This document shows, in pieces, positions 5,076-64,000 of a stretch of 64,000 bases of DNA. This stretch comes from Candidatus Eremiobacterota bacterium. GTDB lineage: Bacteria; Vulcanimicrobiota; Vulcanimicrobiia; Vulcanimicrobiales; Vulcanimicrobiaceae. How positions within the stretch are numbered: the stretch's first letter is position 1; the number at the start of each line of letters is the position of its first letter. Where the stretch lies: assembly GCA_019240525.1 (NCBI GenBank), contig JAFAYE010000001.1, forward strand, positions 2,515,300 to 2,579,299, read 5' to 3'. Under the pieces are notes generated by a model, which searched no databases, had not been told where the DNA came from, and saw nothing but the letters and a program-made list of their open reading frames with translations. Both the position numbers and the translations under genes were made by a program.

Positions 5076-5096
5076 CGCTCCGCGCAGCATTTTATT

Positions 5097-5158
5097 GTCA
5101 TCCTGAGCGTGTCGAAGGATGAGCCGCCGTTGTCATCCTGAGCTTGTCGAAGGATGAC
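5097..5158. repeat. Two copies of the dispersed palindromic repeat
   Basis: Copies at 5097-5122 and 5132-5158, in the orientation GTCATCCTGAGC...GTCGAAGGATGA. The unit is 27 bp with eight-base inverted ends GTCATCCT/AGGATGAC, so it can form a hairpin in RNA or DNA. It fills most of the gap between the cytochrome gene and the GIY-YIG gene. Similar elements recur at 5492, 6197-6476, 22443, 42497 and 63248. Confidence 0.9.
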
Positions 5159-5184
5159 TTGCTAGTATATCTAGCTCTACGCGG

Positions 5185-5460: not shown

Positions 5461-5491
5461 ACAATAGTAATGCTGTCGAACCTCAAGGCGA

Positions 5492-5518
5492 GTCATCCTT
5501 CGACGGGCTCAGGATGAC
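5492..5518. repeat. Dispersed palindromic repeat, single copy
   Basis: A 27-bp copy with intact GTCATCCT and AGGATGAC ends around TCGACGGGCTC. It lies 31 bases after the GIY-YIG gene and directly downstream of the decayed peptidase 3' end that follows, so it may mark the breakpoint of a local duplication. Confidence 0.9.
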
Positions 5519-5535
5519 AAGTGGCCGGAGGCGGA

Positions 5536-5650
5536 TTAGATAGCGACGACCAGTCTCTGCTTCAAGGCGTTGACTGAGTTCACGTTGGAAAAGGAGCTCG
5601 GTGTATTGGCGCATTCCAGGATGGGCGTGAGGCAAGCGAGTGCGAGTTGG
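5536..5650 (-). pseudogene. Relic of the 3' end of the HExxH peptidase gene at 6489-7097
   Basis: Read on the minus strand, this stretch encodes TRTRLPHAHPGM then RQYTELLFQRELSQ, ending in a TAA at 5536-5538. The intact gene at 6489-7097 ends TRTRLRHADPGM then HEFIELLFQREFGQ. The bases align along the whole stretch (CGGATTAGATAG at both 3' ends; GCAAGCGAGTGCGAGTTG at both left limits), with many substitutions. No upstream coding part, catalytic motif or start is present, so this is a non-functional remnant of a duplication. The exact left limit, near 5650-5662, is uncertain. Confidence 0.65.
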
Positions 5651-5673
5651 TGGCGTTGGGCGCTGAAGATCGC

Positions 5674-6132
5674 CTAGCGACGCGTGCAGACGGCAGAGCC
5701 TAAGTTATGCATCACCCCTGCGTGGGTTACGTTGTACACCTGGGTGAATGTCGTCGGCGAAATGCGGCGCCAAGTCTGCGGACCCTCAGTGGGGTTCATG
5801 TGAACCTGGTCGTCGGTGTCGAACCAGCGCCAATTGCCGGCGGCGTCGGGTGCGCGCGAGAGGTCGCGGTAGAAATGCCCATCGTCCCAATAATCGTCAT
5901 AGATCCACATCGGCGATCCTTCAAAACGTCCCACCAAGGCCGTGCCGCTGCGCCGCGGCTCGCTCCAGCGCACCTGCGCCCACTGACCACCCGGGAGCGC
6001 CGCAATGCGCATCGATTCAGTGAACTGCTTCGCGGGACCGTACGCGCTTTCGGGCAGTTTGACGGCGCACGACCACGCACCGCCGAACGCGTGGAGAAAT
6101 AGCTGCGAGGCGAGCACGACGGCAATGGTCAT
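5674..6132 (-). CDS. Exported protein of unknown function
   Basis: A 152-residue protein with an N-terminal hydrophobic segment (IAVVLASQLFLHAFGGAWSCAV) typical of a signal peptide. The rest is rich in aromatic residues (MWIYDDYWDD, NWRWFDTDD) and ends with a Cys-containing tail (GSAVCTRR); with the Cys after the signal region a disulphide is possible. No family was recognised. GGAGG lies only one base before the ATG at 6132, which is too close, so initiation may be slightly downstream (GTG near 6117). It sits between the decayed peptidase copy and the repeat array. Confidence 0.6.
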   Translation of the reverse strand: MTIAVVLASQLFLHAFGGAWSCAVKLPESAYGPAKQFTESMRIAALPGGQWAQVRWSEPRRSGTALVGRFEGSPMWIYDDYWDDGHFYRDLSRAPDAAGNWRWFDTDDQVHMNPTEGPQTWRRISPTTFTQVYNVTHAGVMHNLGSAVCTRR

Positions 6133-6188
6133 TCCTCCTACTTTTGGGACTTGAATCTTACGCCCTATGGCAAGGCACGCCGGCTCAA

Positions 6189-6476
6189 AGACACGCCATC
6201 CTTCGACGGGCTCAGGATGACAAAGGGGCGGTCATCCTTCGACAGGCTCAGGATGAAAAATGCGAGTCATCCTTCGACGGGCTCAGGATGACAAAGATCC
6301 TTCGACGGGCTCAGGATGACAATGGCGCGGCATCCTTCGACGAGCTCAGGATGAAAAATGCGAGTCATCCTTCGACGGGCTCAGGATGACACAGGCGAGG
6401 GATCCTTCGACAGGCTCAGGATGACACAGGCGGGGCATCCTTCGACGGGCTCATCCTTCGACAAGCTCAGGATGAC
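6189..6476. repeat. Array of about nine dispersed palindromic repeats
   Basis: Copies begin near 6197, 6231, 6266, 6296, 6331, 6364, 6401, 6436 (truncated and fused to the next) and 6452, all in the CATCCTTCGACGGGCTCAGG orientation. Spacers are 6-20 bases and themselves partly repeated (ATGCGAG, GGCG). Centres vary (CGACGGG, CGACAGG, CGACGAG, CGACAAG). It fills the gap between the two convergent-looking minus-strand genes' borders at 6133-6488; nothing else is seen in that gap. Spacers are too short and too similar for CRISPR. Confidence 0.93.
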
Positions 6477-6488
6477 AAAGGGCGCGGA

Positions 6489-7097
6489 TTAGATAGAGAC
6501 GACGGTGGCTGCTGCAGGGAGTTGGCCAAACTCACGTTGGAAGAGGAGCTCAATAAATTCGTGCATCCCTGGATCGGCGTGACGCAAGCGAGTGCGAGTT
6601 GCCCGCGGCCAGGGCGAGGCAGCATCGTTCGCTTCGACGTACGCACGAAGTGATTCGGCGAAGTATTCGTCGACGCCAGTCGCGGCATATGGTGTGACGA
6701 AGTTCGTCGCATTAGCGAAAAGCGCGCGAACCTGCGGATCGATGCCGCTGCGGTAAACGCCGCCGCCGAGCGCGCAGTCCAGCGCATGTCCAAATTCGTG
6801 GGCGACGGTCATCGGGCTGCGGGAGCGTAGGTACAGGGTGCGCTCTTCCACCACGAAGAGGCCGGCCGGGGGTGCAGGCCACGCGTCGACGTCGATGCCC
6901 AGGCGCGCCAAGGTGCGCGAGGCATCCCGATAGAGCTCGCTCTTGCGCAGCAGCACGATGCGAATTCGGCTTCGCGCCGCGTACGCGAGCGCTCCGCGGC
7001 CGAAAAGAAGCAGGGTTTCGATCACGGGTTGTTCGGCCAGGCGCCCTTTGTCGGGCACGAAGAGCCGGCGCGCGGTGGCAATGCCGTCGTGTTGCAC
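6489..7097 (-). CDS. Putative zinc metallopeptidase (HExxH...EYFAE)
   Basis: A 202-residue protein with H100-E-F-G-H104 and, 40 residues on, DEYFAES (Glu144/Glu148), which together look like a gluzincin zinc site; HEFGHALD followed by YFAE resembles ATLF-like/Pro-Pro endopeptidase domains. No signal peptide is evident, and the N-terminal half is unassigned. A duplicated and decayed copy of its last 38 codons lies at 5536-5650. The start at 7097 reads MQHDGIATARRLF. The substrate is unknown. Confidence 0.75.
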   Translation of the reverse strand: MQHDGIATARRLFVPDKGRLAEQPVIETLLLFGRGALAYAARSRIRIVLLRKSELYRDASRTLARLGIDVDAWPAPPAGLFVVEERTLYLRSRSPMTVAHEFGHALDCALGGGVYRSGIDPQVRALFANATNFVTPYAATGVDEYFAESLRAYVEANDAASPWPRATRTRLRHADPGMHEFIELLFQREFGQLPAAATVVSI

Positions 7098-7209
7098 CGC
7101 GCCATCGTGGCGCGCTGACGTTTCGGCCGCGTCGCGGCGGTGTTTTCAGAATTTTTTCATACGGCCGCCGTAAGGTTGGAAGAACCTCGCTCACTCCTCG
7201 GAGGCTCTG

Positions 7210-8355: not shown

Positions 8356-8384
8356 ACCGGGGAGGTTCGGCAAATCCTCATGGC

Positions 8385-10151: not shown

Positions 10152-10166
10152 GCCCGGCCCCGAGGC

Positions 10167-13583: not shown

Positions 13584-13586
13584 GGA

Positions 13587-16500
13587 ATGAAAGTTTCTGC
13601 TGCAGTTGCGGCTATCGCATTGGTTTCGTGCGCCGGCCCGTCGTCAAACGCGGCGAAACTTGCGCCGGTCGCCGCGTTGGCGAAGCCGTCCCTGCCGGCG
13701 TGGATCGCTTCGATTTCGCCACTGGGCAAAGCCGATGCGCTCGCACAAATTCGCGTGATCTTTGCCAAACCCGTGACCCCGGTGACCGCGCTCTCCGGCG
13801 ACGGTCCGCGCGCCGTACTCGACCGCGTGCGGATCGATCCGGCACTGCGCGGACATTTTACCGTGCTGACGCCGCGGATGATCGGTTTCGTCGCCGATCA
13901 AGCACTACCGGTCGGAACGCGCGTGCGCATCACCTTGCTGGCCGGACTTCGCGACCTTGCAGGCGACGTGCTCGACCGTGACGTGGCGTGGACGTTCCAA
14001 ACCGAGCCACTGGCCTTGCGCGGGCTGCCTTCGCCTGGAGCTCAGGATGAAGAAACGCCGCCGCCGGCCGGATTGCGCCCGACGATTGCGGTTACGGCGA
14101 ACGCTGCCGTCGATGCGACCTCGTTGGCGTCGCGCGCGTCGCTCTCGGGCGGCGGCGAAAGCGTGCCGCTGACGGCCGTACTGGAAGCGCAGCCGACACC
14201 CCAGCCGGGGACGAATGCGCAGGCGCTCTTCGATCCTTCGCTCGATGACTGGGTGTACAATCTGCGTCCGGCACGCGATCTGCGGCGTGGAACGACGTAC
14301 CGCCTTCGCATCGATCCCGGCGTTGCGCCGACGTATGGCAATCTTGAAACGAGCCGGGCGTTTGAAGGCGAAATTCACACCTACGCCGCGCTGGAGATCG
14401 TACCGACGCCGATGCCGAGCAGCGGCGAGGAGGGGCGCTTCGCCGGCGGCGACCCGGTCGTCGCGTTCAACAATCCGCTCGTTCCCGCGTCGATTGCCCG
14501 CGCGGTCACGATTGCTCCATCTGCAAACGCGGTCAAGACCTTGGCAACCGTGCCTGACTACCGCACCGATGTCATTGCAATCGATCCCTACGCCCTCGAT
14601 CAGGATCGGACGTATACGGTCACGATTGCGGGAACGGTGAAGGATGTCTTCGGTCAACAGTTGGGTTCGCAACGGCAGGTGACCATCCGCACCGGCGCAT
14701 TCGCGCCGGGAGCGTGGGCGCCGAGCGGAGCGAACGTCTTTCCGGCCGGTGCGCCCATCGCGCTCAATTTCTATGCGACCAACTTGCCCGGCGACCGATA
14801 TCAATCGGCGTTCGCACGCGTAGCGCCAACCGCGCTCCTCGGCGGCGCGGGAGCCCTCGCGGCGCTTCCGCCGTATCGGACCTGGCCAGCGCGCACGTTG
14901 AGCGCGCGGCGTAACGAGCAAGGAATCGTGCGCGTGCCGATTCAGAATGAGCTTGGCGGCCGCTATGGTGCGCTCGCATATGGATTTCGCACCGCTCTCG
15001 ATTCGGGTGACTCCGACCCCGCCAATACGGGCGTGGTGCAGCTGACCAACCTCGGGGTCTTTACGCAGTGGTTCCCGTCGCACGGCATCGTCATGGTGCA
15101 GCACCTCAGCGACGGCGCTCCCGTCAGCGGTGCGGTCGTTTCAGTCTACCGCGTCGACGAATCGAATACATTGGCACCGCAACAATGTGCAGCGGGTCGC
15201 ACCGGCGCAAACGGCGAGCTCGATCTCTACGGCGTGGATGTCGAACGCTGTTCGACCGCCGCCGCGTCGAATCAGGCGCCGAACCTTGGCGTCGTTGTGA
15301 CGGAAGGCGCGGACGTCGCGACCGTGACTGCCTGGAACTACAGCGGCATCTATCGATACGAAGTCTTGGGCGGATGGATGACCGGGGCGCCGCTCTCGCG
15401 CGGCACGATCTTCAGCGATCGGCAGATGTATCAGCCCGGCGAGCTCGGCCGGCTTACCGGAATCGCGTATTACGTCAAAGGCGCAGCGGTCGTCGCCGAT
15501 ACTAATGCACGCTATACGGTAACGATCACCGATCCGAGTAACGATACGACGAGGCTCGGGAGCGTGCGAACCGATGATTTCGGCGTCTTCTCGATGCCGC
15601 TCACTTTTTCAAAGCAGCAGCCTTTGGGCTACTACACCGTCGAAGCGAAAGGTTCTAACGGCAACGACATTAACGGTTCGTTGCGCGTTGCGCAGTTTAA
15701 GCCGCCGAACTTTAAGCTGAGCTTGGCGCTCGGCACAAACGCGGTGCCGGCCGGTTCCAGCGTGGGGGCTCACGTTACGGCCGCTTACCTCTTTGGCGCG
15801 CCGCTGCAGGGCGGCATCGCACACGCCTACGTCACGCGCGACGTTGCATCGCTCGCTCCTAAGGGATGGGACGATTTCTCCTTCGGGCCGCAATGGTATT
15901 GGCCCGAGGAGACGCCGTCGTTCTCGACCGACGTCCTGCAGCGAGACCTTCGCCTCGACGCCGACGGAACGGGTTCGTTCGACGTGGGCGTTCCGCGGGA
16001 TTTACCGTTTCCGATGGCCTACCGCGTTGACGTCGAGGCCAGCGACGTGTCGAACCTCTCGGTTGCCGACTCGCAGAAGTTTCTTGCTTTGCCATCCGAT
16101 GCAATGATCGGACTGGCAAGCGACTCTGTCGTCAAGGCGGGAACGCCCCTCGTTGTACGTACGATCGTCACCGACGCCGCTGGGGCGCCGATTTCGGGAC
16201 GTGCCGTGCATCTCGAGCTGCAAAAGATGAACTATGTTTCGGCGACGCAAGAGATTGAAGGCGGCGAAACGGCTGTTCAGGCGATCAAGTACGAGACTGT
16301 TGCGAGTGAGGACGTCACCTCCGGGGACCAGCCGGTAACGGCGCAGCTCGTTCCGACCGATGCTGGACCGTATCGCCTCTTCGCCAATTTTGGCGGAGCG
16401 CCGAACGCCGCTAGCAATAGCAGCGTTCAGATTTTCGCCTTTGGTGGCGGTGAAGCCGACTGGGGCTCGAGCGATCCCAACTCGGTCGCGGTCAAGCTCG

Positions 16501-19190
16501 ACAAGAAGGAGTACGCGATCGGCGACTTCGCCGGCGCAATGATCGCTTCGCCGTACGAGCACGCCGACGTCTACTTTGCGGTCGTGCGTAATGACGTGAT
16601 TTACCGCACAACAATGCGCAACGTCAGCGGTGCCGTGCACGTGAGCTTTCGGGTTACGCAGCAAATGTTGCCGAATGCGGCGGTCGAAGCCGTCGTCGTA
16701 CGACGATCGAACGAAACCCGAACGCCGGAAAATCAGAAGCTGTCGCTGACCGGTATGGCGCCTCTGGCAGTCGATCTCAGCGGTCGTTACCTCAAACTCG
16801 CCGTCACGCCGCAACAGACGACGGTCCATCCTGGCGGCGCGCAGCGTGTAGCGTTCAGCTTGACGAAGCGAGATGGTGCGCCCGGGCAGGGCGAGATCGT
16901 TGCAATGGTCGTGAACGACGCGATTTTGCAACTCTCGGATTACCGGCTGCCCGATCTCGTGGCAACCATCTTCGCGCAACAGCCGATTTCGACGATCTTT
17001 GCCGACAATCGCGAAAACGTTACCCTGAAAACGCTGACCCCGCCGCTCGAGAAAGGCTTCGGCTACGGCGGTGGTTATTTGGCCGGCGCGGCGAGCACGC
17101 GAGTGCGCGCGAACTTTCGCCCGATGGCGTACTACGGCGTCCTACGAACCGATGCCGCCGGCCGGGCCGTTGCCGACTTCACGATGCCCGACGATCTCAC
17201 GACGTGGCGTGTCATGGCGGTGGCACTCGATCGCGACGGCGGGCACTTTGCAACGGCGGATACGACCTTTGTCTCGAATCAGCCGCTGATCGCCAATCCG
17301 ATTCTGCCGCAATTCGCTCGCCCGGGCGACGGCTTCGATTTGGGCATTTCGGTCGCCAATCAAACCGGTGCGGGTGGCGCGCTCGACTTCGTGTTGAAAC
17401 TCACTGGGTCGCTGAGCTTCACGCATGGCGACCCAAAAACGGAGCGCGCCAGCGAGCAAATTTCCGCGGGCGTGCAAGCCTTGCGCTTTCCGGTTGCTGT
17501 CGGCACGCCCGCGCCGACGCAGGTCGAAGCGACGGCGAATTTGGGTGCGCACAGCGATGCGTTCCGCGTACCGTTTGAATCGAGCCTCCGGGACAGCACC
17601 GACTCGGTGATCGAGAGCGGTACGGCGCGCGGGCACATCACGGTACCGATCGCGCTCACCTCCGGCGGAACGTTGCAGGTCACGCTGGCCAATACGGTCG
17701 TCCCGCAGTTCGTGACCCCCGCGGAGCGCGTGATGGCGACGGACGCGTTCCCGCTGACCGACGAGGTCGCGTCGCGGCTGACGATTGCTAGCGCCTTGCA
17801 GAAGTTGCGAGGACCTTATGGTTTGAAGCTTACATTCGATCCGGTCGTTGCCGGCGCGGCGAACCGGGCGCAACTACGCTCGCTGCAGCGGGGCGACGGC
17901 GGCTTTGCAGCCTATAGCGGCGCTGGGGCAAGCGATCCGTTCGCGACTGCCGCCGCACTGAACGCGCTCGCATTCGCCCAACTTGACGGCGCGCCGCGCG
18001 ACTCGAGCGCCGTCGCCGATGCTGTGGCCTACATGACGCGGGTTCTGGCCAATCCGGGCATCTTTGCCTGGTGTAGCGGCGAAGCGTGCAAGACGCGACT
18101 TCGCTTTGAGGCGCTGTGGGCGTTGCGCGGTCACGGTGCCGTGCGCACCGAGTTCCTTTCCGACATCGTCGCGCGGTCGAGCGATTTCGACAGCGCGACG
18201 CAGATTCGTGTCGCACGCTACCTGCTCGGTGCTCCGGGATGGCAAAGCAAAGGCGCGGCGATGGCAGACGCTTTGGAACAGCGGCTGTATGTCACCGGGC
18301 GCTACGCCGTGATGAACTTGAACGGCCCGGGCGGCTGGCTGGGCTCAGGCGTGCAGGCGCAAGCGCAGATGCTGGAACTCTTGCTCGATCGTCACGCGCC
18401 CGCGGACCGGCTCGACGGTGCAATCCGCTCGCTGATCGCACAGCGCTGCCGCTGCGGGTGGCCGACGACAGACGACACGGCTGCGGCGCTCGTTGCGCTC
18501 CAGGCGTACGCTGCGGGCGAACGTCTTGCGCCGGCAACGGTGAGCGCCAAGGTGGGAGATCGGACGATCGGAACCGCTCGTTTCGGCGCCACCGCATCGT
18601 CGCAAACCTTTTCCGTTGCGGCCGATTCACTCCAAGGCGGAACGCTCGCAATCGTTCCAACCGCTGGGACGGTGTACTACGTGGTTCTCTACACCTATCC
18701 CGTGGCTGCGAATTCGCCCGGGGAACTTGCGGCTTTTCGCGTCATTCGCACGCTCGCCGATCCAAGTTCGACGTCGTCGAAGGGCGCGGCGTTGGCTGAA
18801 ATGGACGTAGCCGCGGCTCTGCCCGTTTCGGTTGCCGCGGGACGCGTCTTCGATATCGGAGTGCGCGCGATCGTCGATCATTCCGTCGATCGGCTCGTCA
18901 TTGACGATCCACTACCAGCCGGATTTGAAGCGGTCGACACGACCTTCCGCACGGCGCTTCAGTCGATCGTTGCGCAAAGCGATAGCTGGCAGATCGACGC
19001 GAGCCAAATCTATCGCGACCGCGTGATCGCCTACGCGCAGCATCTCGATCCTGGCGTCTACGAACTGCACTACCTCGTGCGCTCGGTGACCCCCGGAACC
19101 TTTGCTTGGCCCGGCGCCCGCGTCTATCTGCAGGATGCGCCCGAAGAGTTCGGCCGCAGCGCCGGCACGACGCTGCGCGTCACGCCGTAA
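13587..19190 (+). CDS. Bacterial alpha-2-macroglobulin lipoprotein without thioester
   Basis: An 1867-residue secreted protease-trap protein. The signal peptide ends in a lipobox at Cys14 (ALVSC). N-terminal Ig-like MG domains with SISPLGKADALAQIRV follow, then the alpha-2-macroglobulin core (SDRQMYQPGELGRL; MPDDLTTWRVMAVALDRDG), a toroid (YSGAGASDPFATAAALNALA) and a C-terminal bundle. The usual C-[LG]-E-Q thioester following YPYG is replaced near residue 1388 by FPLTDEVASR, so covalent trapping is lost, as in MagD-type homologues. With PBP1C it is thought to protect the envelope from attacking proteases. ATG 13587 fits the signal peptide. Confidence 0.92.
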   Translation: MKVSAAVAAIALVSCAGPSSNAAKLAPVAALAKPSLPAWIASISPLGKADALAQIRVIFAKPVTPVTALSGDGPRAVLDRVRIDPALRGHFTVLTPRMIGFVADQALPVGTRVRITLLAGLRDLAGDVLDRDVAWTFQTEPLALRGLPSPGAQDEETPPPAGLRPTIAVTANAAVDATSLASRASLSGGGESVPLTAVLEAQPTPQPGTNAQALFDPSLDDWVYNLRPARDLRRGTTYRLRIDPGVAPTYGNLETSRAFEGEIHTYAALEIVPTPMPSSGEEGRFAGGDPVVAFNNPLVPASIARAVTIAPSANAVKTLATVPDYRTDVIAIDPYALDQDRTYTVTIAGTVKDVFGQQLGSQRQVTIRTGAFAPGAWAPSGANVFPAGAPIALNFYATNLPGDRYQSAFARVAPTALLGGAGALAALPPYRTWPARTLSARRNEQGIVRVPIQNELGGRYGALAYGFRTALDSGDSDPANTGVVQLTNLGVFTQWFPSHGIVMVQHLSDGAPVSGAVVSVYRVDESNTLAPQQCAAGRTGANGELDLYGVDVERCSTAAASNQAPNLGVVVTEGADVATVTAWNYSGIYRYEVLGGWMTGAPLSRGTIFSDRQMYQPGELGRLTGIAYYVKGAAVVADTNARYTVTITDPSNDTTRLGSVRTDDFGVFSMPLTFSKQQPLGYYTVEAKGSNGNDINGSLRVAQFKPPNFKLSLALGTNAVPAGSSVGAHVTAAYLFGAPLQGGIAHAYVTRDVASLAPKGWDDFSFGPQWYWPEETPSFSTDVLQRDLRLDADGTGSFDVGVPRDLPFPMAYRVDVEASDVSNLSVADSQKFLALPSDAMIGLASDSVVKAGTPLVVRTIVTDAAGAPISGRAVHLELQKMNYVSATQEIEGGETAVQAIKYETVASEDVTSGDQPVTAQLVPTDAGPYRLFANFGGAPNAASNSSVQIFAFGGGEADWGSSDPNSVAVKLDKKEYAIGDFAGAMIASPYEHADVYFAVVRNDVIYRTTMRNVSGAVHVSFRVTQQMLPNAAVEAVVVRRSNETRTPENQKLSLTGMAPLAVDLSGRYLKLAVTPQQTTVHPGGAQRVAFSLTKRDGAPGQGEIVAMVVNDAILQLSDYRLPDLVATIFAQQPISTIFADNRENVTLKTLTPPLEKGFGYGGGYLAGAASTRVRANFRPMAYYGVLRTDAAGRAVADFTMPDDLTTWRVMAVALDRDGGHFATADTTFVSNQPLIANPILPQFARPGDGFDLGISVANQTGAGGALDFVLKLTGSLSFTHGDPKTERASEQISAGVQALRFPVAVGTPAPTQVEATANLGAHSDAFRVPFESSLRDSTDSVIESGTARGHITVPIALTSGGTLQVTLANTVVPQFVTPAERVMATDAFPLTDEVASRLTIASALQKLRGPYGLKLTFDPVVAGAANRAQLRSLQRGDGGFAAYSGAGASDPFATAAALNALAFAQLDGAPRDSSAVADAVAYMTRVLANPGIFAWCSGEACKTRLRFEALWALRGHGAVRTEFLSDIVARSSDFDSATQIRVARYLLGAPGWQSKGAAMADALEQRLYVTGRYAVMNLNGPGGWLGSGVQAQAQMLELLLDRHAPADRLDGAIRSLIAQRCRCGWPTTDDTAAALVALQAYAAGERLAPATVSAKVGDRTIGTARFGATASSQTFSVAADSLQGGTLAIVPTAGTVYYVVLYTYPVAANSPGELAAFRVIRTLADPSSTSSKGAALAEMDVAAALPVSVAAGRVFDIGVRAIVDHSVDRLVIDDPLPAGFEAVDTTFRTALQSIVAQSDSWQIDASQIYRDRVIAYAQHLDPGVYELHYLVRSVTPGTFAWPGARVYLQDAPEEFGRSAGTTLRVTP

Positions 19191-19221
19191 TTGCGGCCGT
19201 AATTGTGTCTGCGCAGCGAGG

Positions 19222-19563
19222 TTACGGACAGTAGTATTTGGCCATCGCGCCGCTGCCCGCGATGCTGATATTCTTATTCGTAGCGTTGACCCAGTAGATG
19301 TAGACCGTGCTGCCGCCCGAGCCTGTTTGCGTGACGTCGATTGTCAGCGGCGTTCCACCATTGGTTTTGTTCCAGAAGTTGTTGACGAAACAACCGTTGC
19401 GATTCACCGGGAGCGTCGCGGAAGCGCAGATGTCACCAGACTTGCAGGTGGCATCGCCGCTGAGGGCGCGCGCTGTGATATAACCCTCGATTGGCGCTCC
19501 TTGGTGGGTTGCGCCCGCCGGAGCGAAGGTAATCGCGGATAGAAGTACTGAGAGTAGAAACAT
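19222..19563 (-). CDS. Small exported protein of unknown function
   Basis: 113 residues starting at ATG 19563: a signal peptide (MFLLSVLLSAITFAPAGA) followed by a small domain with five cysteines (ATCKSGDICAS, NGCFVNN, KYYCP). Good disulphide potential and GSGGSTVYIYWVN suggest a compact beta-rich fold. A ribosome site AAGGAG on the minus strand (19577-19585) supports this start rather than an upstream one that would add 39 residues without a signal. No family recognised. It lies convergent to the end of the alpha-2-macroglobulin gene. Confidence 0.65.
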   Translation of the reverse strand: MFLLSVLLSAITFAPAGATHQGAPIEGYITARALSGDATCKSGDICASATLPVNRNGCFVNNFWNKTNGGTPLTIDVTQTGSGGSTVYIYWVNATNKNISIAGSGAMAKYYCP

Positions 19564-19716
19564 CGTTTTCGTGTCTTCTCCTTGACGATGGTGTGCGATG
19601 TGTACGAGTAGAATACGCTGTGATGCCGCAGTTGCTCGCAAGCAGGCACCCAGTTTTGTACGTATTTTAATTCCCGGCAACCGCTGAAGCTGGACATTTC
19701 AATGCGCGGCACGAAC

Positions 19717-19733
19717 TATTATTTTTAATAATA
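19717..19733. promoter_or_regulatory. AT-only palindrome upstream of the beta-oxidation operon
   Basis: TATTATT-TTT-AATAATA is a perfect seven-base inverted repeat made only of A and T, in a strongly GC-rich background, 55 bases upstream of the acyl-CoA dehydrogenase start. It lies in the divergent promoter gap 19564-19787. It could be a repressor operator, an UP-like element or part of a promoter (ATATATGATTTATCA follows). The role is inferred from position only. Confidence 0.4.
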
Positions 19734-19787
19734 TATGATTTATCAGGCGCTCGGCAGCATGGAGCAGTGGCGCTTGGAGGAGGTCCC

Positions 19788-21611
19788 ATGAGTCCCTATC
19801 GTGCCCCCCTGCGAGATATGCAGTTTGCGTTGCGGGAACTGGCCGGAATCGACGGGGTCGGCGCGCTGCCGGGCTGCGAGGATACGCTCGACGTGCTCGA
19901 TTCCGTGCTCGAGGAGGCGGCAGCGTTTGCGGCGGGCGTGCTCGATCCGCTCAATCGGAGCGGCGACAAATCCGGCTGCACCTGGAAAGCGGGCGACGTC
20001 ACGACTCCCCCCGGCTTCAAGGAGGCGTACCGAAAATTTGCCGATGCCGGATGGATCGGCTTGCCGGTCCCGCCCGAATACGGCGGCCAGGGGCTGCCCC
20101 AGATTCTTTTGGGCCCGACCTTAGAGATGTGGAATGCCGCGAATATTGGCTTTGCCAACGGGCCCCTGCTCAATCAGGGCGCGATCGAGGCGATCGAGCT
20201 GGTCGGGTCGGCGGAGCAGAAGAAGCGTTTCATTCCGAATTTGGTATCGGGCAAGTGGACCGGCACGATGTGCTTGACCGAACCGCAAGCCGGCTCCGAT
20301 CTCGCCCAAGTTCGCGCCCGTGCCGTTCCCGAAGGCGATCGTTACCGCATCAGCGGCACGAAGATCTTCATTACTTTCGGCGAGCACGACATGGCGGAGA
20401 ATATCATTCATTTGGTGCTCGCCCGTCTGCCCGACGCGCCGGAAGGCACGAAGGGTATCTCGCTCTTCATCGTGCCGAAGTTTCTGGTGAACGACGACGG
20501 GAGCTCCGGCGAGCGAAACGACGTGGTTTGCGCCAGCATCGAACATAAACTCGGCATCAATGCCAACCCCACGTGCACGCTCAACTACGGCGAAAAGGGT
20601 GAGGGTGCCGTTGGCTACCTTGTCGGCGAGCCGAATCGCGGCCTGGAATACATGTTCATCATGATGAACGCCGCACGCTTTTCGGTCGGCGTTCAAGGGA
20701 TCGCATTGGCCGACCGCGCTTATCAGAGCGCGCTCGAGTACGCGAAGGAGCGCGTACAGGGCCGAGATCTGCGTCCAGGCTCGCGGACGCCCGAAGCGAT
20801 CGTCAAACATCCCGACGTCCGGCGAATGCTCATGCTGCAAAAGGCGACAATCGAGGCCATGCGCGGGCTTGCCTACGTCACGGCGGCATCGCTGGATTAC
20901 GCGCAGCGTCATCCGGACGAGCGCGTACGCCGCGAGCACAAAGCTTTCGTCGAACTCATGATTCCGGTCGTGAAAGGCTGGTGCACCGAAAGCGCGGTCG
21001 AACTCTGTTCCACCGCGCTCCAAGTCTTTGGCGGCATGGGCTATATCGAAGAGACCGGCATCGCGCAGCAGTATCGCGACGTGCGCATCATCACGATCTA
21101 CGAAGGCACCACCGGCATTCAATCGCTCGACTTGGTCGGGCGTAAGTTATTGCGAGACATGGGTGCGACCGCGATGAACGTCGGACGCAAGATCGAGGAC
21201 GTTGCAAAGGCATGCGCCGCGCATTCGGATGCGACCGTCGCGCGCATCGGCGCGGCCTTGACCGAAGCGCTGGCGGAGTTGAACGGTGCCTCGCAGTGGA
21301 TCGGAATGAATGCAATGGGCAACTTGCAGCAGGCGTTTGCGTGTTCGGTTCCCTATCTGCGTTTGTGGGGCACGGTCGCCGGCGGTTGGCAGATGGCACG
21401 CGCTGCTCAAATCTCGGCCGAGCGAATCGCAAGCGGCGATATCGAGGCCGAGTTTTACCGGGCCAAACTCGCAACGGCCGCATTCTACGCCAGCCACGTG
21501 CTTTCGCAGGCGACATGGCTCAAGCGTCAGATCGTCGACGGCTCGGCTGACGTTTCTCGGGTAACCGACCTACAGTTCGAGCTTGATCGAAAAATGGCGG
21601 TAACGGCGTAA
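19788..21611 (+). CDS. Acyl-CoA dehydrogenase (long DmdC/PA0508-like type)
   Basis: A 607-residue FAD-dependent acyl-CoA dehydrogenase, the first step of beta-oxidation. Signatures: TMCLTEPQAGSDLAQVR (FAD/substrate loop), GTKIFITFGEHDM, QVFGGMGYIEETGIAQQYRD and IYEGTTGIQSLDLVGRK, then an extra C-terminal domain (about 470-600, as in PF12806) that distinguishes this branch from 380-residue enzymes. Chain-length preference cannot be told. GGAGG at 19776-19780 sets ATG 19788. The stop is one base before the hydratase/dehydrogenase GTG, so the two are co-translated. Confidence 0.94.
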   Translation: MSPYRAPLRDMQFALRELAGIDGVGALPGCEDTLDVLDSVLEEAAAFAAGVLDPLNRSGDKSGCTWKAGDVTTPPGFKEAYRKFADAGWIGLPVPPEYGGQGLPQILLGPTLEMWNAANIGFANGPLLNQGAIEAIELVGSAEQKKRFIPNLVSGKWTGTMCLTEPQAGSDLAQVRARAVPEGDRYRISGTKIFITFGEHDMAENIIHLVLARLPDAPEGTKGISLFIVPKFLVNDDGSSGERNDVVCASIEHKLGINANPTCTLNYGEKGEGAVGYLVGEPNRGLEYMFIMMNAARFSVGVQGIALADRAYQSALEYAKERVQGRDLRPGSRTPEAIVKHPDVRRMLMLQKATIEAMRGLAYVTAASLDYAQRHPDERVRREHKAFVELMIPVVKGWCTESAVELCSTALQVFGGMGYIEETGIAQQYRDVRIITIYEGTTGIQSLDLVGRKLLRDMGATAMNVGRKIEDVAKACAAHSDATVARIGAALTEALAELNGASQWIGMNAMGNLQQAFACSVPYLRLWGTVAGGWQMARAAQISAERIASGDIEAEFYRAKLATAAFYASHVLSQATWLKRQIVDGSADVSRVTDLQFELDRKMAVTA

Positions 21612-21612
21612 C

Positions 21613-23634
21613 GTGTCTTCGGTTCGAGTCGTCACCTTGGACAATCCGCCGGTCAATGCGCTGTCGTTTGCATACTGCGCGGGCTTGTTGGCACAGCTCC
21701 AGGCCGCATGGACCGACGACGCCGTTTGCGCGATCGTGCTGACCGGCGCGAACGGACTCTTCAGCGCGGGTGCCGACGTCAACGACTTCAACGCGAACAT
21801 GCCGGCAGACGCGATAACGATACGCGATGTGATCGCCGCAATCGAAGGGAGCGACAAAGTCCACGTCGCCGCGATCGACGGTACGTGTCTGGGCGGTGGA
21901 TTCGAACTCGCGCTTGTCTGCGACTACCGCATCGCAAGCGTCGGCGCAAAACTCGGTCTGCCCGAGATTCGGCTCGGGCTGCTGCCGGGTGCCGGCGGCA
22001 CGCAACGCCTTCCCCGCCTCATCGGCGCGCGGGCGGCGCTCGAGTTCATGCTCAAAGGTTCGTCGATCTCGGCGCAACGCGCGCTCGAGTTAGGGATGAT
22101 CGACGAGGTGACCGCGGCTCCGGTGGTCGAACGCGCCGCGGAGCTCGCCAAGGGAGAAAAACGGCGGATCTCGGCTCGAACGGCGATCATCGCAAAAGAC
22201 GTCCCCGCGCAAGCCGGGCCCTACGTCGTCGCACAAGCACACAAGATGGTGCCGCGCGAAGAGAGCGGCGGACTCGCCGCGCACAAGCTCATCGACGCCG
22301 TGCAAGCGTCAATCGAGTTGCCGTTCGCATTCGGCATTGCCCGCGAGGCTCGCCTATTCGACGAGCTGGTTCGCTCGAAACCATCGCAGGCGCTGCGCCA
22401 TCTGTTCTTCGCCGAACGGGAACTGAGTAAGATTCCGGGAGAGTCATCCTTCGACGGGGCTCAGGATGACAGAGAGCGAGCTGGCGAGTCATCCTTCGAC
22501 GGGGCTCAGGATGACAAGGGGCGGGCTCAGGATGACAAAGATGTGCGAAAGGCGGGTGTTGTCGGGGCGGGGACGATGGGAAGCGGAATCGCAATTGCGT
22601 TCGCGCAGGCGGGGCTTCCGGTCGTCGTCGTCGACAGTAACGACGCTGCGGTCGATTCGGCGCGTCAGACCGTTTTAGGCATGTTCATGTATCAGGTGCA
22701 GCAGGGCAAGCTCACTCAGGAAGAAGCCTGGAAGCGCGCTCAGTCCATTCGCTTTACCGACGATTGGAGCGAGCTCGGCGACGCCGATCTGATCGTCGAG
22801 GCAGTCTTTGAGAATCTCGCGGTGAAGCAAGACGTGTTTCGTCGGCTCGATGCCGTCGCCAAGCCCGGCGCGATCCTCGCATCCAATACGTCAACGCTCG
22901 ACATCGACAAGCTCGCTGAAGCGACGCAGCGTCCCGATCGCGTCGTGGGCCTGCACTTTTTCGTTCCGGCGAACATCATGCCGCTTCTCGAGATCGTGCG
23001 CGGTCAAAAAACCTCCACGCAGACCTTGGCGACGGCCTTCAAGTTGGCCAAGACGCTGCGCAAGAAGGGCGTGCTCTCCGGCAACGCGTTTGGCTTTATC
23101 GGCAATAGGATGATCTTCGACTACGTGCGCGAGGCCAATGCGTTGGCGGAGGAAGGCAACGCGCCCGCGCGCATCGACGACGTGATGAAGCGTTTCGGAT
23201 TTCCGATGGGGCCGTTCGCGATGAGCGATCTCTCGGGGCTCGACATTGGCTTGGCGGTGCAAAAAGCCGCCGGCGGACAGAGACTCGGTAGAACCAACGT
23301 GCTCGAACGGCTCGTTGGGATGAATCGCCTTGGGCAAAAGACGCTGGCCGGCTTCTTTCGATACGACAAGAGCGTCGGCAAAGGTCGCGAGCCGATTCGT
23401 GATCCGATCGTCGAGGAAATGTTCGCTGAGGAAGCGCGAACGGCGGGAATCGCTCCCCGCGAGGCCAGCGCCGAAGAGATCCGCACGCGTCTTCTCGGTG
23501 CCTTGGCCGCGCGCGGTCAAAAGCTCGTCGAGGAGGGCGTCGCCTTGCGTCCCGGCGACATCGACATCGTCTACGTCTACGGCTACGGGTTCCCGCCGCA
23601 TCACGGCGGACCGATGTGGTATAGCCATGCGTGA
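21613..23634 (+). CDS. Enoyl-CoA hydratase / 3-hydroxyacyl-CoA dehydrogenase fusion (FadB/FadJ-like)
   Basis: A 673-residue bifunctional beta-oxidation enzyme. Residues 1-270 form the crotonase domain ([37 protein letters not shown]). From about 314 comes the NAD-binding dehydrogenase domain ([19 protein letters not shown]) with [16 protein letters not shown] and a C-terminal helical domain ending [18 protein letters not shown]. The linker (about 277-308) is encoded by two in-frame copies of the dispersed palindromic repeat, translated [10 protein letters not shown] twice, then AQDD once more. Start GTG 21613. The last eight bases overlap the thiolase start. Confidence 0.94.
22443..22536. repeat. 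Dispersed repeat translated in frame inside the beta-oxidation fusion gene
   Basis: Two 28-bp copies at 22443-22470 and 22488-22515 and a truncated third at 22523-22536. Copy starts are 45 bases apart, so each period adds exactly 15 codons. Both full copies have one more G in the centre (CGACGGGGCTC) than the intergenic copies (CGACGGGCTC). They encode the hydrophilic, acidic linker between two catalytic domains, where an insertion would be tolerated. Confidence 0.93.
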
Positions 23635-24814
23635 AGCGGTCATCGTTGCGGCGGCGCGCACGCCGATCGGGCGGGCGTTTCGAGGCGCCTTCAATCAAAC
23701 GCCGGGCGCTACCCTGGCGGGACACGTTGTAAAACTGGCGATGGAGCGCGCCGGGATCGATCCGGCGGAGGTCGACGACGTCATTATCGGCTGCGGGCTA
23801 CCGGAGGGGGCAACCGGGAACAACATCGGGCGAACGGCGGCGCTGCGCGCGGGTTGTCCGGTAACCGTGCCGGGGCAGACCGTCAGCCGCTTTTGCGCCT
23901 CCGGACTCGATGCGATTTCGGCAGGCGCCCAGCGCGTCATGGCCGGCAGCGCGCAGACCATCATTGCCGGCGGGGTCGAGTCGATCAGCATGGTGCAGAA
24001 CGACATGAACTTACGGTTTTTCACCGAGGAGTGGCTGCTTCGGCACGTTCCCGATCTCTACACGCCGATGCTGTTTACCGCCGATTTCGTCGCCAAGAAA
24101 TTCGGCGTGTCGCGGGAGAGCCAGGATCAATATGCGTTGCAGAGCCAGCAGCGCACGGCGGCGGCGCAGGGCGCGGGCCGTTTCGACGATGAGATCGTTG
24201 CGCTCCCGTCGTGGAAGTACGAGCAAAACAAAGAGTCCGGCGCCGTGATCGAACGGCAGGTCGAGCTCGCGAAGGACGAGGGAAATCGGCCGGAAACCAC
24301 GCTGGCGGGACTGGCGTCGCTCGGAAGCGCAGTGCCGGGCGTGGCGGACTCGACCGTGACGGCGGGCAACTCGTCGCAGCTCAGCGACGGCGCGGCCGCA
24401 GTTGCCATCGTCGAGGCAGACGCGGCGCAGCGGCGCAACCTCACTCCGCTCGGATTGTACCGCGGCTATGCGGTGGCGGGTTGCGAGCCCGGCGAGATGG
24501 GAATCGCGCCGGTCTACGCCGTGCCGAAGTTGCTCAAACAGCACGGTTTAACGGTCGACGACATCGGCCTTTGGGAGCTCAACGAAGCCTTTGCCGTTCA
24601 AACCGTGTACTGCCGCGATCGACTCGGCATATCCAACGACCGCTTCAATGTCGACGGCGGCGCCATTGCGATCGGCCATCCGTACGGTATGAGCGGTGCG
24701 CGAATGACGATGCACGCGCTGATCGAGGGGAAACGCCGCGGCGAGAAATACGTCGTCGTTACGATGTGCGTTGCAGGGGGCATCGGCGCCGCGGCCCTCT
24801 TTGAAGTCGTCTAA
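23627..24814 (+). CDS. Acetyl-CoA acyltransferase (thiolase)
   Basis: A 395-residue thiolase that cleaves 3-ketoacyl-CoA to acetyl-CoA. Active-site Cys90 lies in [11 protein letters not shown], the NEAF motif in [11 protein letters not shown], the His in [12 protein letters not shown], and the second Cys in [15 protein letters not shown]. The start ATG 23627 overlaps the previous gene by eight bases; the open frame extends further upstream only inside that gene. It completes a three-gene set for all four beta-oxidation steps. A role in a biosynthetic condensation is possible but less likely in this operon. Confidence 0.95.
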
Positions 24815-24823
24815 GGGGGAACG

Positions 24824-25108
24824 TCAGGCTTTTTTCGGTTGCCAGGCGGTGCACCAGCCATTGGGGCTGATGGACCCGTCGACGAGCTTGCAGCTCCCGT
24901 TCGCCGACGGCGAGCTGCCCGCAACGTAGAACGTGCACTGCGAACACTTATGCCCGTTGCTGGGCGAGTTCTGATACTTGAACTGTGCTTTGGTGCCTTT
25001 TGCTTGCGCGGTTGCGGTTTCGGCGAGAAGCAGACCGGCGAGCGCCGGAAGAACCACGGCGTTGGCTACGAACGTACGGCGAGTCATCGAGCTCCGGAAC
25101 TTCGTCAT
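24824..25108 (-). CDS. High-potential iron-sulfur protein (HiPIP)
   Basis: 94 residues with a Tat signal (MTRRTFVANAVVLPALAGLLLA) and the HiPIP ligand pattern C55-x2-C58 ... C73 ... GWC86, in KCSQCTFYV, NGSCKLVDG and NGWCTAW. HiPIPs hold one 4Fe-4S cluster at high potential and carry electrons in the periplasm; the Tat signal fits export with the cluster folded. GGAGG eleven bases upstream supports ATG 25108. It lies convergent to the thiolase gene and divergent from the DUF6600 gene. The partner oxidase or reductase is not in the window. Confidence 0.9.
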   Translation of the reverse strand: MTKFRSSMTRRTFVANAVVLPALAGLLLAETATAQAKGTKAQFKYQNSPSNGHKCSQCTFYVAGSSPSANGSCKLVDGSISPNGWCTAWQPKKA

Positions 25109-25246
25109 GTCGGCGTATTACCTCCAGCGGCATGGTTGGCGCAGCGGCGTGACGAGACCCTCTCACTCGGGCTTAATGGTAAGCTAATCGTGATTCGATG
25201 CTTTGCCTGTCGCGTTCGGTTTCAATGGGTGCGAGGGGAATTTGCA

Positions 25247-27376
25247 ATGATGAGATGGATCACGAGCCTGATTTCGGGAGTCGCCCTAATGGGGGTGACG
25301 CTTTCCAGTGCGCTGCCGGCTCCGGCCGAGCAGGCGCCCGATAAGAACGGGCCCGGCGTAACTCGGGTGAGCATAGTTCAAGGTTCGGTCGTCGTTCAGC
25401 GCGGCGATAGCAATAAGCAGGTTTCGGCAACCGTGAACGCGCCGCTCTTGCCGGGCGACTATATTTCAACCGGCGCGACGTCGCGCGGCGAGCTGCAATT
25501 CGACGGCTCGACGGCTGTGCGACTGGGCGGCAGCGTGCAAGCGCGAATTACCAACGACAATCCGAACAATCGGCAGTTGCAGCTCGCTGACGGCACGATT
25601 GAGCTCGGCTTGGTGCGCAATGCCGGCACGGTACGGGTCGACACGCCGTCGGTGACGGTCCGCGGCCGGGGCGCCGGCGACTATCGCATTTCCATCGATC
25701 ACGACGGCTCGACCTGGATCACGGCTCGCCGGGGTACCGTCGACATCGTCTCGCCGCAGCGTACGTACACCTTGGAATCGGGACGAACGCTCGTCGCACG
25801 TGGCTCAGCCTCAGATCCCTCGATCACCTATACGCAAGAAGTCGGCTACGACACGTTCGACGACTTCAACGCGAAACGCGACCAATCATTAGTGGCCGCG
25901 CTCAACGCGAGCCCGAACCTCAATCCCGATATTGCGGGCTACGACGATTTGGGTGCGTACGGTCAGTGGCAAGACGTGGCCGGCTACGGACAAGCCTGGG
26001 TCCCCCAGCAGACGTCCAACTGGGCTCCGTATAGCGACGGATCCTGGACGTGGGAAGACGGTTATGGCTGGACGTGGGTCGCGGCCGAGCCCTGGGGATG
26101 GGCGCCGTATCACTACGGACGCTGGTTCTACGCGAACGGTTATGGCTGGGCGTGGTATCCGCCGGCCTACAATGCTTATCCGGCGTGGTCACCGGCGCTC
26201 GTCGGATTCTTCGGATTCGGTGTCGGCGGCCCAGGCTGGGACGTATCGGTCGGTTTCGGCTACCCCTACATCGGCTGGTATCCCCTCGCGCCGTACGCAC
26301 CGTATTATCCGTGGTATCCCGGTTGGTCGTGGCTTGGTTTCGGCTGGGGCTGGGGTGGTGGCGGCTGGGGCTGCTGCGGCGGGGGATGGGGCCAGAACGT
26401 CTACGTGACCCGCGTAACGAACGTGTACCGCTACTTCCCGCACGGCGGCGTGCACGGAACGCTCGTCGGAAACTTCCAGCACGGAACGTTCTCCGGGCAC
26501 ATCACGCCGGTCAACGAGCGTAACATTGGCAGTCGCGTGGGAGTGGTGCACGGAGCGCTGCCGATCGCGCCAACCCGCGACAGCCTCGGCTTCGGTGGCC
26601 ATTCCATCGGATCGCCGGTCTCGCTCTCGAGGGCTTTTGAGTCGCCGCGTTTCTCGGCCGCGAATCGGACGCTCGCCGGGCGCACGTCGTTCGATCAACA
26701 GGAGCGGTCAATGTCGCGGGCGTTTCAGGCGCACACCACGACGAACCGCGTCGATGCCCAAGAGCGGCCGTCTTCCGGCTCGTGGCAGCGTTTCAACGAG
26801 AATCGCGACGAGAATCAGAATCGCGACGAGAATCAGAATCGCGACGAGAATCGCGACAACCAATCTCGCGGCGGCGTATCGACAGCGCAGCGCAGCGATT
26901 CGTGGGGGCGGTTCTCAAGCTCGCGTGGCGAGACGTACTCGCGCAATGATACGTACTCGCGCAGCGAGTCATACGGAGGATCGAGCGAGCGCAATCCGAC
27001 AGCGAGTGGATCCTACGAGCGAAGCAATCCGTACGCACGAAGCAGCTCGTATGGCTCGTACTCGCGTAGCTCATATCCGTCATACGCACGCGGATCGTAT
27101 GGTTCGCCGTCGTACTCGCGCGGATCGTATGGCTCGCCGTCGTACTCGCGCGGATCGTATGGTTCGCCGTCGTACTCGCGCGGATCGTATGGCTCACCGG
27201 CGTACTCCCGCGGATCGTACGGCTCGCCGCCGTACTCCCGCGGATCGTATGGCTCGGCTCCATCGTACTCGCATGGTGCCGCGCCAGCGTACCACGGGGG
27301 CTACTCTGCGCCGCATTCCTCGGAGAGTCGAGGTAACAATAGCGGCTCGCACGGCAACGGACGCCCACCGCAGTAA
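25247..27376 (+). CDS. Exported FecR/DUF6600-type protein with low-complexity repeat tail
   Basis: A 709-residue surface protein. Signal peptide about 1-27. A FecR-like domain follows (about 40-190: GSVVVQRGDSNKQVSA, TVRGRGAGDYRI), then a DUF6600 segment built of aromatic W/Y/G repeats (YSDGSWTWEDGYGWTWVA; GWAPYHYGRWFYANGYGWAW), then a Gly/Trp stretch. The C-terminal third is Ser/Arg/Tyr-rich, with NQNRDE repeats and at least five perfect decapeptides (RGSYGSPSYS type). It is probably cell-envelope associated. The ATG pair at 25247/25250 follows GAGGGG. The long open frame upstream is not used. Confidence 0.82.
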   Translation: MMRWITSLISGVALMGVTLSSALPAPAEQAPDKNGPGVTRVSIVQGSVVVQRGDSNKQVSATVNAPLLPGDYISTGATSRGELQFDGSTAVRLGGSVQARITNDNPNNRQLQLADGTIELGLVRNAGTVRVDTPSVTVRGRGAGDYRISIDHDGSTWITARRGTVDIVSPQRTYTLESGRTLVARGSASDPSITYTQEVGYDTFDDFNAKRDQSLVAALNASPNLNPDIAGYDDLGAYGQWQDVAGYGQAWVPQQTSNWAPYSDGSWTWEDGYGWTWVAAEPWGWAPYHYGRWFYANGYGWAWYPPAYNAYPAWSPALVGFFGFGVGGPGWDVSVGFGYPYIGWYPLAPYAPYYPWYPGWSWLGFGWGWGGGGWGCCGGGWGQNVYVTRVTNVYRYFPHGGVHGTLVGNFQHGTFSGHITPVNERNIGSRVGVVHGALPIAPTRDSLGFGGHSIGSPVSLSRAFESPRFSAANRTLAGRTSFDQQERSMSRAFQAHTTTNRVDAQERPSSGSWQRFNENRDENQNRDENQNRDENRDNQSRGGVSTAQRSDSWGRFSSSRGETYSRNDTYSRSESYGGSSERNPTASGSYERSNPYARSSSYGSYSRSSYPSYARGSYGSPSYSRGSYGSPSYSRGSYGSPSYSRGSYGSPAYSRGSYGSPPYSRGSYGSAPSYSHGAAPAYHGGYSAPHSSESRGNNSGSHGNGRPPQ
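27091..27258 (+). repeat. 30-bp in-frame tandem repeat in the DUF6600 gene
   Basis: Five full 30-bp units start at 27091, 27121, 27151, 27181 and 27211 (each CGGATCGTATGG... ending in TACTCGCG or TACTCCCG), plus a partial unit at 27241. Each unit codes for the decapeptide GSYGSPSYSR with few changes. Near-identical units suggest recent slippage or recombination, so copy number probably differs between strains. Confidence 0.95.
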
Positions 27377-42493: not shown

Positions 42494-42496
42494 CCG

Positions 42497-42519
42497 CCCT
42501 TCGACAGGCTCAGGATGAC
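42497..42519. repeat. Dispersed repeat filling the recA-recX gap
   Basis: CCCTTCGACAGGCTCAGGAT followed by GAC is a slightly truncated copy of the 27-bp element. It takes up almost the whole gap between the recA stop and the recX ATG at 42520. Its AGGATGAC end places AGGA four bases before the ATG, so the element doubles as the recX ribosome-binding site. Its left GTCATCCT arm is degraded. Confidence 0.88.
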
Positions 42520-42993
42520 ATGAGGGCATATTCTGCGGCGTTGGCGTTCTTGGCGAAGCAACGCTGTACCGAAGCGCGGCTTTGGCAACACTTAGAGCGT
42601 AAAGGGTTCGATGATGACGCGGCGCGAGTCGCGATCGAGCGCTGCAGAAGGGAAGGATTTCTCGACGACCGTCTCTATGCCCGGCTATACGTGGAGAAGA
42701 AGCGCAAACCAGTCGGCAACGAGCGCCTCGTCGGCGAGCTGATCCGCAAAGGTATTGGGGGCGAGGCGGCGGCAGAAGCTGTCGCCTCGCTCGAAAATGA
42801 CGAAGGCTCGCGCTGCAATGCGGCCTTCGAACGATTGCTCAAGAACGGCGCGGTCGAATATCCGTCCGCTGCGCGGCGCCTCGAGCGCTTGGGCTTTCCC
42901 GCTTCAACGATCTACCGCGTGCTGCGCACTCACGCTGCCCGCTTTGGCCCGCTCGCCGAGCTCGCTTCGGCAGAGCCGAATTCAGGAGCCTAA
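42520..42993 (+). CDS. recX: RecA regulator RecX
   Basis: A 157-residue all-helical protein with RecX three-helix repeats: [40 protein letters not shown] and [23 protein letters not shown], plus a third repeat ([19 protein letters not shown]). RecX binds RecA filaments and limits them; it typically sits next to recA. Translation seems to rely on the repeat-derived AGGA. Four-base convergent overlap with the gene at 42990-43247. Confidence 0.92.
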
Positions 42994-63247: not shown

Positions 63248-63286
63248 CCCTTCGACAAGCTCGCCCTTCGACAGGCTCAGGGTGAC
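63248..63286. repeat. Dispersed repeat at the tsaD 3' end
   Basis: Two fused partial copies: CCCTTCGACAAGCTC (63248-63262) and GCCCTTCGACAGGCTCAGGG followed by TGAC (63263-63286). The second has GGGTGAC in place of GGATGAC. On the minus strand TCA at 63277-63279 inside the repeat is the stop codon of tsaD, and the last two codons before it (Ser, Pro) also lie in the repeat. Confidence 0.85.
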
Positions 63287-64000
63287 AGGGGGAAGGCGAG
63301 GTTTGGGTCGGCGCAGAGCGTGAGCGGATCGGCGCGGACGGCATCGCGCTGATAAAACGCGGCTGCAGCGATCATCGCGGCATTGTCGGTGCAATATTGC
63401 GGCGGCGGAATGAAGGCCGGAATATCGTTGGCTCGTGCCCACGACGCGAACGCGGCTTGCAACGCAGAGTTGGCCGCAACGCCGCCGGAGAGCGCGACCG
63501 CCTTGTATTCGGCGCGCGAGTAGGCCGCTTTCAGCCGCGCCATTAGCACGTCGACAACGGCGGCTTGAAACGACGCCGCCACGTCCTCGCGCGTAGCGTC
63601 GCCTCCCGCTTCGGACTCCAGAAAATAACGAACCGACGTTTTCAAGCCCGAAAACGAGAGGTCGAGCGAGTCTCCGGAAGGGCGATGGCGTGGAAACGCT
63701 ATCGCATCGGGATTGCCTCGTTGCGCGAGCAGATCGAGCGCCGGGCCTCCAGGATAGGGAAGCCCCAGCAACCGTGCGGTCTTATCGTAAGCTTCGCCGG
63801 CGGCATCGTCGTAGGTGCGGCCGAGGACGCTCAACTCTGTTGCCGACTCGACGCTAACCAGTTGCGAATGACCGCCGGAAACGAGCAACGTGAGAAATGG
63901 ATACGGCGGTTCTTCGACGCGATCGAGGAAGGGCGCGAAAACGTGCCCGTGCAGATGATTGACGGCGTAGAGCGGCCGCTGTGACGCAAACGCGTAGGCC
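63277..64000 (-). CDS. tsaD: tRNA N6-adenosine threonylcarbamoyltransferase TsaD, partial
   Basis: The gene runs off the right edge; about 241 C-terminal residues are present. TsaD, with TsaB and TsaE, puts threonylcarbamoyl on A37 of ANN-decoding tRNAs. Visible marks are the metal-binding HLHGH in AVNHLHGHVFAP, LLVSGGHSQLVSVE, YDDAAGEAYDKTARLLGLPY, DLSFSGLKTSV and VALSGGVAANSALQ; the C-terminal CTDNAAMIAAAAF supplies the last metal ligand. The TTG at 63886-63888 is an internal Leu, not the start. The C-terminus is set by the dispersed repeat. Confidence 0.95.
   Translation of the reverse strand, partial: AYAFASQRPLYAVNHLHGHVFAPFLDRVEEPPYPFLTLLVSGGHSQLVSVESATELSVLGRTYDDAAGEAYDKTARLLGLPYPGGPALDLLAQRGNPDAIAFPRHRPSGDSLDLSFSGLKTSVRYFLESEAGGDATREDVAASFQAAVVDVLMARLKAAYSRAEYKAVALSGGVAANSALQAAFASWARANDIPAFIPPPQYCTDNAAMIAAAAFYQRDAVRADPLTLCADPNLAFPLSP

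Follow-up and report, generated by a model that had tools for sequence, protein, structure and literature searches.

The locus analysed here raises the question of how a palindromic repeat that lies mostly between genes came to be read, in frame, between the two enzyme domains of a beta-oxidation protein. An earlier sequence-only reading of the window (the whole 64,000-nt stretch of Candidatus Eremiobacterota DNA under study) had pointed to a dispersed repeat inside the fusion gene, encoding the same peptide twice with a copy period of 45 bases that keeps the frame, and had taken it for a mobile palindrome captured as a protein linker. Our analysis leads us to consider it very probable that a REP-like selfish palindrome spreads in this Eremiobacterota genus, and that copies tolerated in frame survive as linker or loop peptides.

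The fusion enzyme and the palindromes in its linker

The fusion gene is flanked upstream by an acyl-CoA dehydrogenase-like open reading frame (ORF) and downstream by a thiolase-like one, both named from their translations rather than by family search. Its product matches the Pfam families ECH_1 (148 bits), 3HCDH_N (213 bits) and 3HCDH (94 bits, residues 494-584 of 673), and the nearest solved structure is 6ium, a bacterial multifunctional enzyme (E 3e-149). Both the Pfam matches and the 6ium alignment thus place ECH and 3HCDH domains in a single chain, as in FadB/FadJ-type proteins. Since the alignment covers both flanks, residue 276 falling on residue 282 of 6ium and residue 309 on its residue 290, the insert can be placed in the interdomain linker. 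The ECH-linker-HAD architecture is common to this enzyme and the multifunctional enzyme type 1/FadB family (PDB 6ium, 2x58, 1wdk), but here the linker is extended by palindrome-encoded sequence. In the AlphaFold2 model (mean pLDDT 87.7) most of both domains exceed 90, while pLDDT falls below 50 at residues 282-307, approximately the inserted peptide, so that this segment is predicted to be disordered.

Both palindromes in the linker are the 26-nt sequence TCATCCTTCGACGGGGCTCAGGATGA, carried on a 45-bp tandem unit whose two copies are identical at 40 of 45 positions (Table 1). The same 10-residue peptide is therefore encoded at 22441-22470 and again at 22486-22515, in frame with the ORF, which bears out the repeat, the doubled peptide and the 45-base period described earlier and adds a 3' half copy, likewise in frame. 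Two other repeats were noted elsewhere in the window: a 30-bp tandem repeat encoding RGSYGSPSYS (27047-27286) inside a large secreted-looking ORF (24839-27376), and a family of GVDF/GADL-like motifs resembling pentapeptide repeats (52307-53253).

Table 1. Features of the window, with positions counted from its first nucleotide
Feature	Position	Strand	Basis
Two palindrome copies in opposite orientation	5095..5162	-	sequence
Array of about ten ordinary 2-nt-loop copies, start-to-start distance mostly 28-36 nt	5494..6482	+	comparison set
FadJ/FadB-like bifunctional enzyme (enoyl-CoA hydratase and 3-hydroxyacyl-CoA dehydrogenase)	21613..23634	+	ORF, 673 aa
Enoyl-CoA hydratase domain (ECH_1), residues 2-195	21616..22197	+	Pfam
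Repeat-derived linker peptide, 32 residues (277-308)	22441..22536	+	orthologue comparison; AlphaFold2
Palindrome copy 1, 3-nt-loop (GGG) subtype, read SSFDGAQD	22444..22469	+	sequence
Palindrome copy 2, same GGG subtype as copy 1, 45 bp downstream	22489..22514	+	sequence
3' half copy GGGCTCAGGATGACA, read RAQDD (22522-22536)	22523..22537	+	sequence
3-hydroxyacyl-CoA dehydrogenase NAD-binding domain (3HCDH_N), residues 313-489	22549..23079	+	Pfam
Single dispersed palindrome copy	42495..42520	+	sequence
Single dispersed copy, GGGTGA stem type	63262..63287	+	sequence

A dispersed palindrome family and its loop subtypes

The family to which these copies belong has the consensus TCAYCCTTCGACARGCTCAGGRTGACA. 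In the genome from which the window comes (2.8 Mb, five contigs) the 2-nt-loop form TCATCCTTCGACNNGCTCAGGATGA occurs 112 times at up to two mismatches, and the reversed control not once. The stem is TCAYCC/GGRTGA or TCATGC/GCATGA and encloses the loop core TTCGAC(N2-3)GCTCA. We defined well-paired copies as those with at least 6 paired stem positions and found 139 in the stretches around repeat copies. Among them TCGACARGCTC is nearly invariant, and stem positions 3 and 4 co-vary (C-G/G-C 99/39 and T-A/C-G 106/32, respectively). The 3' CA tail is likewise conserved (C in 137 and A in all 139), the 5' side being variable. Copies are clustered in arrays of 2-10 at a spacing of about 26-60 nt. 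Four separate sites (L024, L078/L121, L147 and L155) share a nested composite, CTTCGACCCTTCGACARGCTCAGGGC, one palindrome of which sits inside the other's loop; such composites may thus be copied whole.

The family is present in all 18 genomes of the genus, is patchy in other genera and almost absent from other orders of the phylum. Very similar sequences of 21-25 nt are found in plasmids of distant phyla (Methylobacterium, Comamonas, Gloeothece, Hymenobacter and others), and exact element sequences in five IMG/VR contigs. An Rfam search of window positions 5000-24000 gave no match. The REP-associated Y1 transposase (Y1_Tnp, PF01797) was detected in none of the 18 genus genomes, and in 5 of 14 control genomes. 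The element is palindromic, as MITEs are; in genomes compared across species, we identified neither target duplication nor a parental transposon. The mobility suggested by the sequence-only reading comes from dispersal and repeated arrival, which lead us to infer that the element moves despite having no detectable REP-associated Y1 transposase; we saw neither a transposition event nor a transposase for it.

The same reading held that each full linker copy has an extra G compared with all intergenic copies. Both linker copies are indeed G-extended and are the only ones with a 12-base loop among the 139 well-paired copies examined, the remaining 137 having 11 bases. The window's genome nevertheless contains two more loop-extended copies, at C1:2293777 (CAG) and C1:1053233 (TTC), which with the two GGG copies in the linker make up its four 3-nt-loop elements, and this form is dispersed across the genus, with 141 copies in G007, 74 in G006 and 56 in G016. 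This genus-wide count speaks against an extra G peculiar to the fusion gene. The additional base may mark the two linker copies as members of the loop-length subtype that is frequent across the genus, or may have arisen by slippage in the G-run of a GG-loop element, ahead of the 45-bp duplication.

The 2-nt-loop element has six frames, three of them open (VILRQAQDD, SSFDRLRMT and VILSLSKDD), and the extra base joins frame b (SFD..) to frame a (AQDD), turning SFD-LRMT into SFD-AQDD. In PurA, IleRS and TrmFO of other species the 3-nt-loop form reads a 16-residue peptide or PFDFAQGD. Given the abundance of this subtype in the genus, the peptide first noticed in the window is therefore what the subtype encodes in that frame. 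Frame a (LRQAQDD), the most hydrophilic, accounts for 15 of 25 captures of the 2-nt-loop form against an expectation of one third (p = 0.006), a modest bias among captures that are not all independent.

Recurrent captures at the same loops

A search of related genomes showed palindrome-derived linkers in several frames and orientations, with element-derived DNA at the linker in 8 of the 17 genus members that have this part of the gene. In orthologues without an element, an ordinary linker spans about 75 nt between FFAERxL and VGAGTMG, as in PGLPAAEPLEIKKAG. The palindrome therefore lengthened a linker that already existed and did not create one, so that of the earlier proposal of capture as a linker we retain the dispersed palindrome lying in frame between two domains, recurrently across the genus, and not the origin of the linker itself. 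In-frame insertion between the two enzyme domains, with the frame maintained, is well supported.

The carriers are the window's genome (G000), G001, G002, G003, G004, G008, G011 and G014, and their linker peptides include PFDTAAARPAQDD and ILPFDSAQGRLAQDD. G002 and G011 have long-loop elements (PFDT...AQDD), and the orthologues in records JAMXLK010000142 and JAFAOZ010000250 are identical to these two at the linker. One element is nested in another in G003 (VILPFDSAQGRLAQDD), the element is antisense in G014 (CHPERSRR) and decayed in G001 (VTLPQTQRD), and the linkers of G004 and G008 read ALRQAQGDT and PFDKLRMTD. The inserts thus differ in frame, orientation, loop type (2 nt, 3 nt or long) and codon position, and all eight stay in frame. 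On a tree from which the linker columns were omitted, at least 6 changes are required to explain the captured state, and strong branches force 4 of them. The remaining clear palindromes seen in these FadJ ORFs are at or past the C-terminus, in several relatives (L008, L007, L025 and L024).

Isoleucyl-tRNA synthetase (IleRS) shows a similar pattern. In the window's genome (L055:3538-3681; C1 near 1985.8 kb) about 60 aa, derived from several palindromes in both orientations, occupy one loop, which aligns between residues 217 and 227 of PDB 8c9e. That loop is filled, mostly differently, in six further genus members (G003, G010, G014, G017, G004 and G006), requiring at least 5 changes within the genus, and is also filled beyond it, in further genera of the family (G026, G060, G070, G073 and G018). 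The sequence GACGTCATGCACG of the empty orthologues in G005 and G013 corresponds to GACGTCATGCTTCGACAGG in the window's genome, so that the IleRS element begins precisely at a match to its own end. This match could reflect target choice or microhomology, or be what is left of a lost copy.

A coding-potential scan of the stretches around copies in the window's genome identified captures in IleRS, an SDR and a GH1 protein. Some ORFs that the scan picked out have no Pfam support, namely L098 and L146, which we left out of the capture count, and the lipoprotein-like L093 and L105. The GH1 glycoside hydrolase ORF (L052:13982-16270) appears to be interrupted by an SBP_bac_3-like segment (residues 303-450 by Pfam), an unusual domain insertion, and the palindrome-derived peptide lies close to that segment. 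G003 and G014 have captures in TrmFO (in the same two loops), PurA, LigA, an SDR and adenosine deaminase, and further ones in a Rieske oxygenase, a PBP, a NUDIX protein and the C-terminus of Fmt. Within the stretches covered for the window's genome, genes contain only 7 of the 139 well-paired copies, a proportion consistent with strong purging of intragenic copies.

Origin of the captures and comparison with known palindromes

Several other explanations have to be weighed. Low complexity is frequent in linkers, so the linker might resemble the repeat by chance; we give this essentially no credence, and the copy counts refute it, since two exact 26-nt palindromes and a half copy match a family dispersed in more than 100 copies, against none for the reversed control. 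It is also very improbable that the assembly is at fault, with one G fewer per copy in reality, ECH and HAD encoded by separate genes and the palindrome intergenic. G homopolymers are common indel sites and the assembly has few contigs (five), yet one G fewer would bring a stop at codon 300 if both copies were changed, or 355 if one were, so that the frame would break ahead of the dehydrogenase domain or shortly after its start. All full-length relatives, by contrast, have an intact single fusion, and the linker captures seen in other assemblies all keep the frame as well.

A single capture in the ancestor of the genus, followed by losses, gene conversion from other copies and decay, would account for the clustering of several captured species (G002, G004 and G011 form one group), and arrays do grow and turn over. 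We nonetheless consider it unlikely, given that inserts differ in orientation, loop type and codon position and that the short linkers of many species are ordinary sequence, alignable codon for codon; some of the shared captures could still be one old insertion with later turnover. Somewhat less likely again is that the linker element is adaptive, a hydrophilic spacer or mRNA hairpin that tunes folding, domain spacing or translation. Repeated filling of the same site and the favouring of the hydrophilic frame would fit such a role, as would the long hairpin into which the linker mRNA can fold (MFE -36.7 kcal/mol), but this lies only 1.8 sd below shuffles, a weak excess of structure. Moreover, 9 of the 17 orthologues have no element, the inserts vary in frame, orientation, length and peptide, and loops of unrelated proteins take the same elements.

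We therefore favour the spread of a REP-like selfish palindrome whose tolerated in-frame copies persist. A family of short elements of this kind would spread in the genus while selection removes most insertions in genes, and the survivors would be those in a disordered linker or surface loop whose length and frame leave the gene open, to be translated as neutral hydrophilic spacer peptides. The element that settled in the ECH-HAD linker of the window would have been of the 3-nt-loop form, or of the 2-nt-loop form with one G added to its G-run; the 45-bp unit would then have been duplicated in tandem with the frame kept, and the half copy would have come afterwards. We infer this order of events, and neutral tolerance of the insert seems plausible by analogy with the guanylate kinase discussed below. 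More speculatively, it may be that in this Eremiobacterota family an element of about 26 nt without a classical REP transposase repeatedly re-enters the same permissive loops of essential enzymes in different species, perhaps guided by short matches to its end that were already there (GTCATG, in IleRS), supplying disordered linkers with loop length as a frame switch. Such an element would, if this is true, be a steady source of new disordered linker peptides.

Until now the best-known protein-coding palindromes have been those of the intracellular Rickettsia and Wolbachia, together with scattered intragenic REPs. Here, the genus and its outside relatives provide captures by the dozen in housekeeping enzymes, and orthologues that are empty can be compared directly with others that are filled in different ways. 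This amounts to a natural experiment on the sites at which proteins accept insertions and on the reading frames that selection retains, and it shows a route from selfish DNA to protein linker. The near-identical plasmid copies in distant phyla raise the question of how a tiny palindrome moves without a recognisable transposase.

Rickettsia palindromic elements (RPEs) are dispersed palindromes found in frame in conserved, often essential genes and also between genes, with plausible translated products and a typical length of 105-146 bp that includes their own ORF (Ogata et al., 2000, 2002, as described in PMC10969869, PMC2229807 and PMC3733652); in the one case there described as tested experimentally, an RPE-bearing guanylate kinase, the effect was close to neutral (PMC2229807). 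Like RPEs, our family is inserted in frame in conserved genes that stay open (FadJ, IleRS, PurA, TrmFO, LigA and others). It differs in being about 26 nt long, in using several frames and both orientations, in belonging to another phylum and in recurring at the same loops in different species, the distinction from the RPE sequence families being drawn on length. We have found no report of the element sequence, on either strand, or of in-frame palindromes of this kind in Eremiobacterota in the literature searched, although papers outside that search may exist.

GTAG and CGTC REPs are stem-loops of 20-40 bp with a short loop and an unpaired tail, occurring as singletons and clusters; intragenic REPs encode 20-30 aa in genes that include tRNA synthetases, DNA ligase and excinucleases, and in recB a REP occupies approximately the same site in two Xanthomonas species (PMC3733652). 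Our family resembles REPs in the broad sense in its 25-26 nt plus tail, its high copy number (112-139), its mostly intergenic location, its co-varying stem and its asymmetric unpaired 3' CA tail. It departs from GTAG-type REP/RAYT systems in the absence of the REP-associated Y1 transposase noted above. CGTC REPs, too, have no dedicated transposase, and combine a CGTC head, an 8-9 bp stem, a 4-5 nt loop and a CCA-like tail (PMC3733652), whereas our element has a stem of 6-7 bp, a CA tail, a (C)GTCA head in some copies only and a longer, sequence-invariant loop core, TTCGACARGCTCA, of 11-12 nt. In-frame palindromes are thus already known from RPEs and intragenic REPs; the present family differs in length, loop and frames and, above all, in its recurrence at the same loops in many species and in at least four genes.
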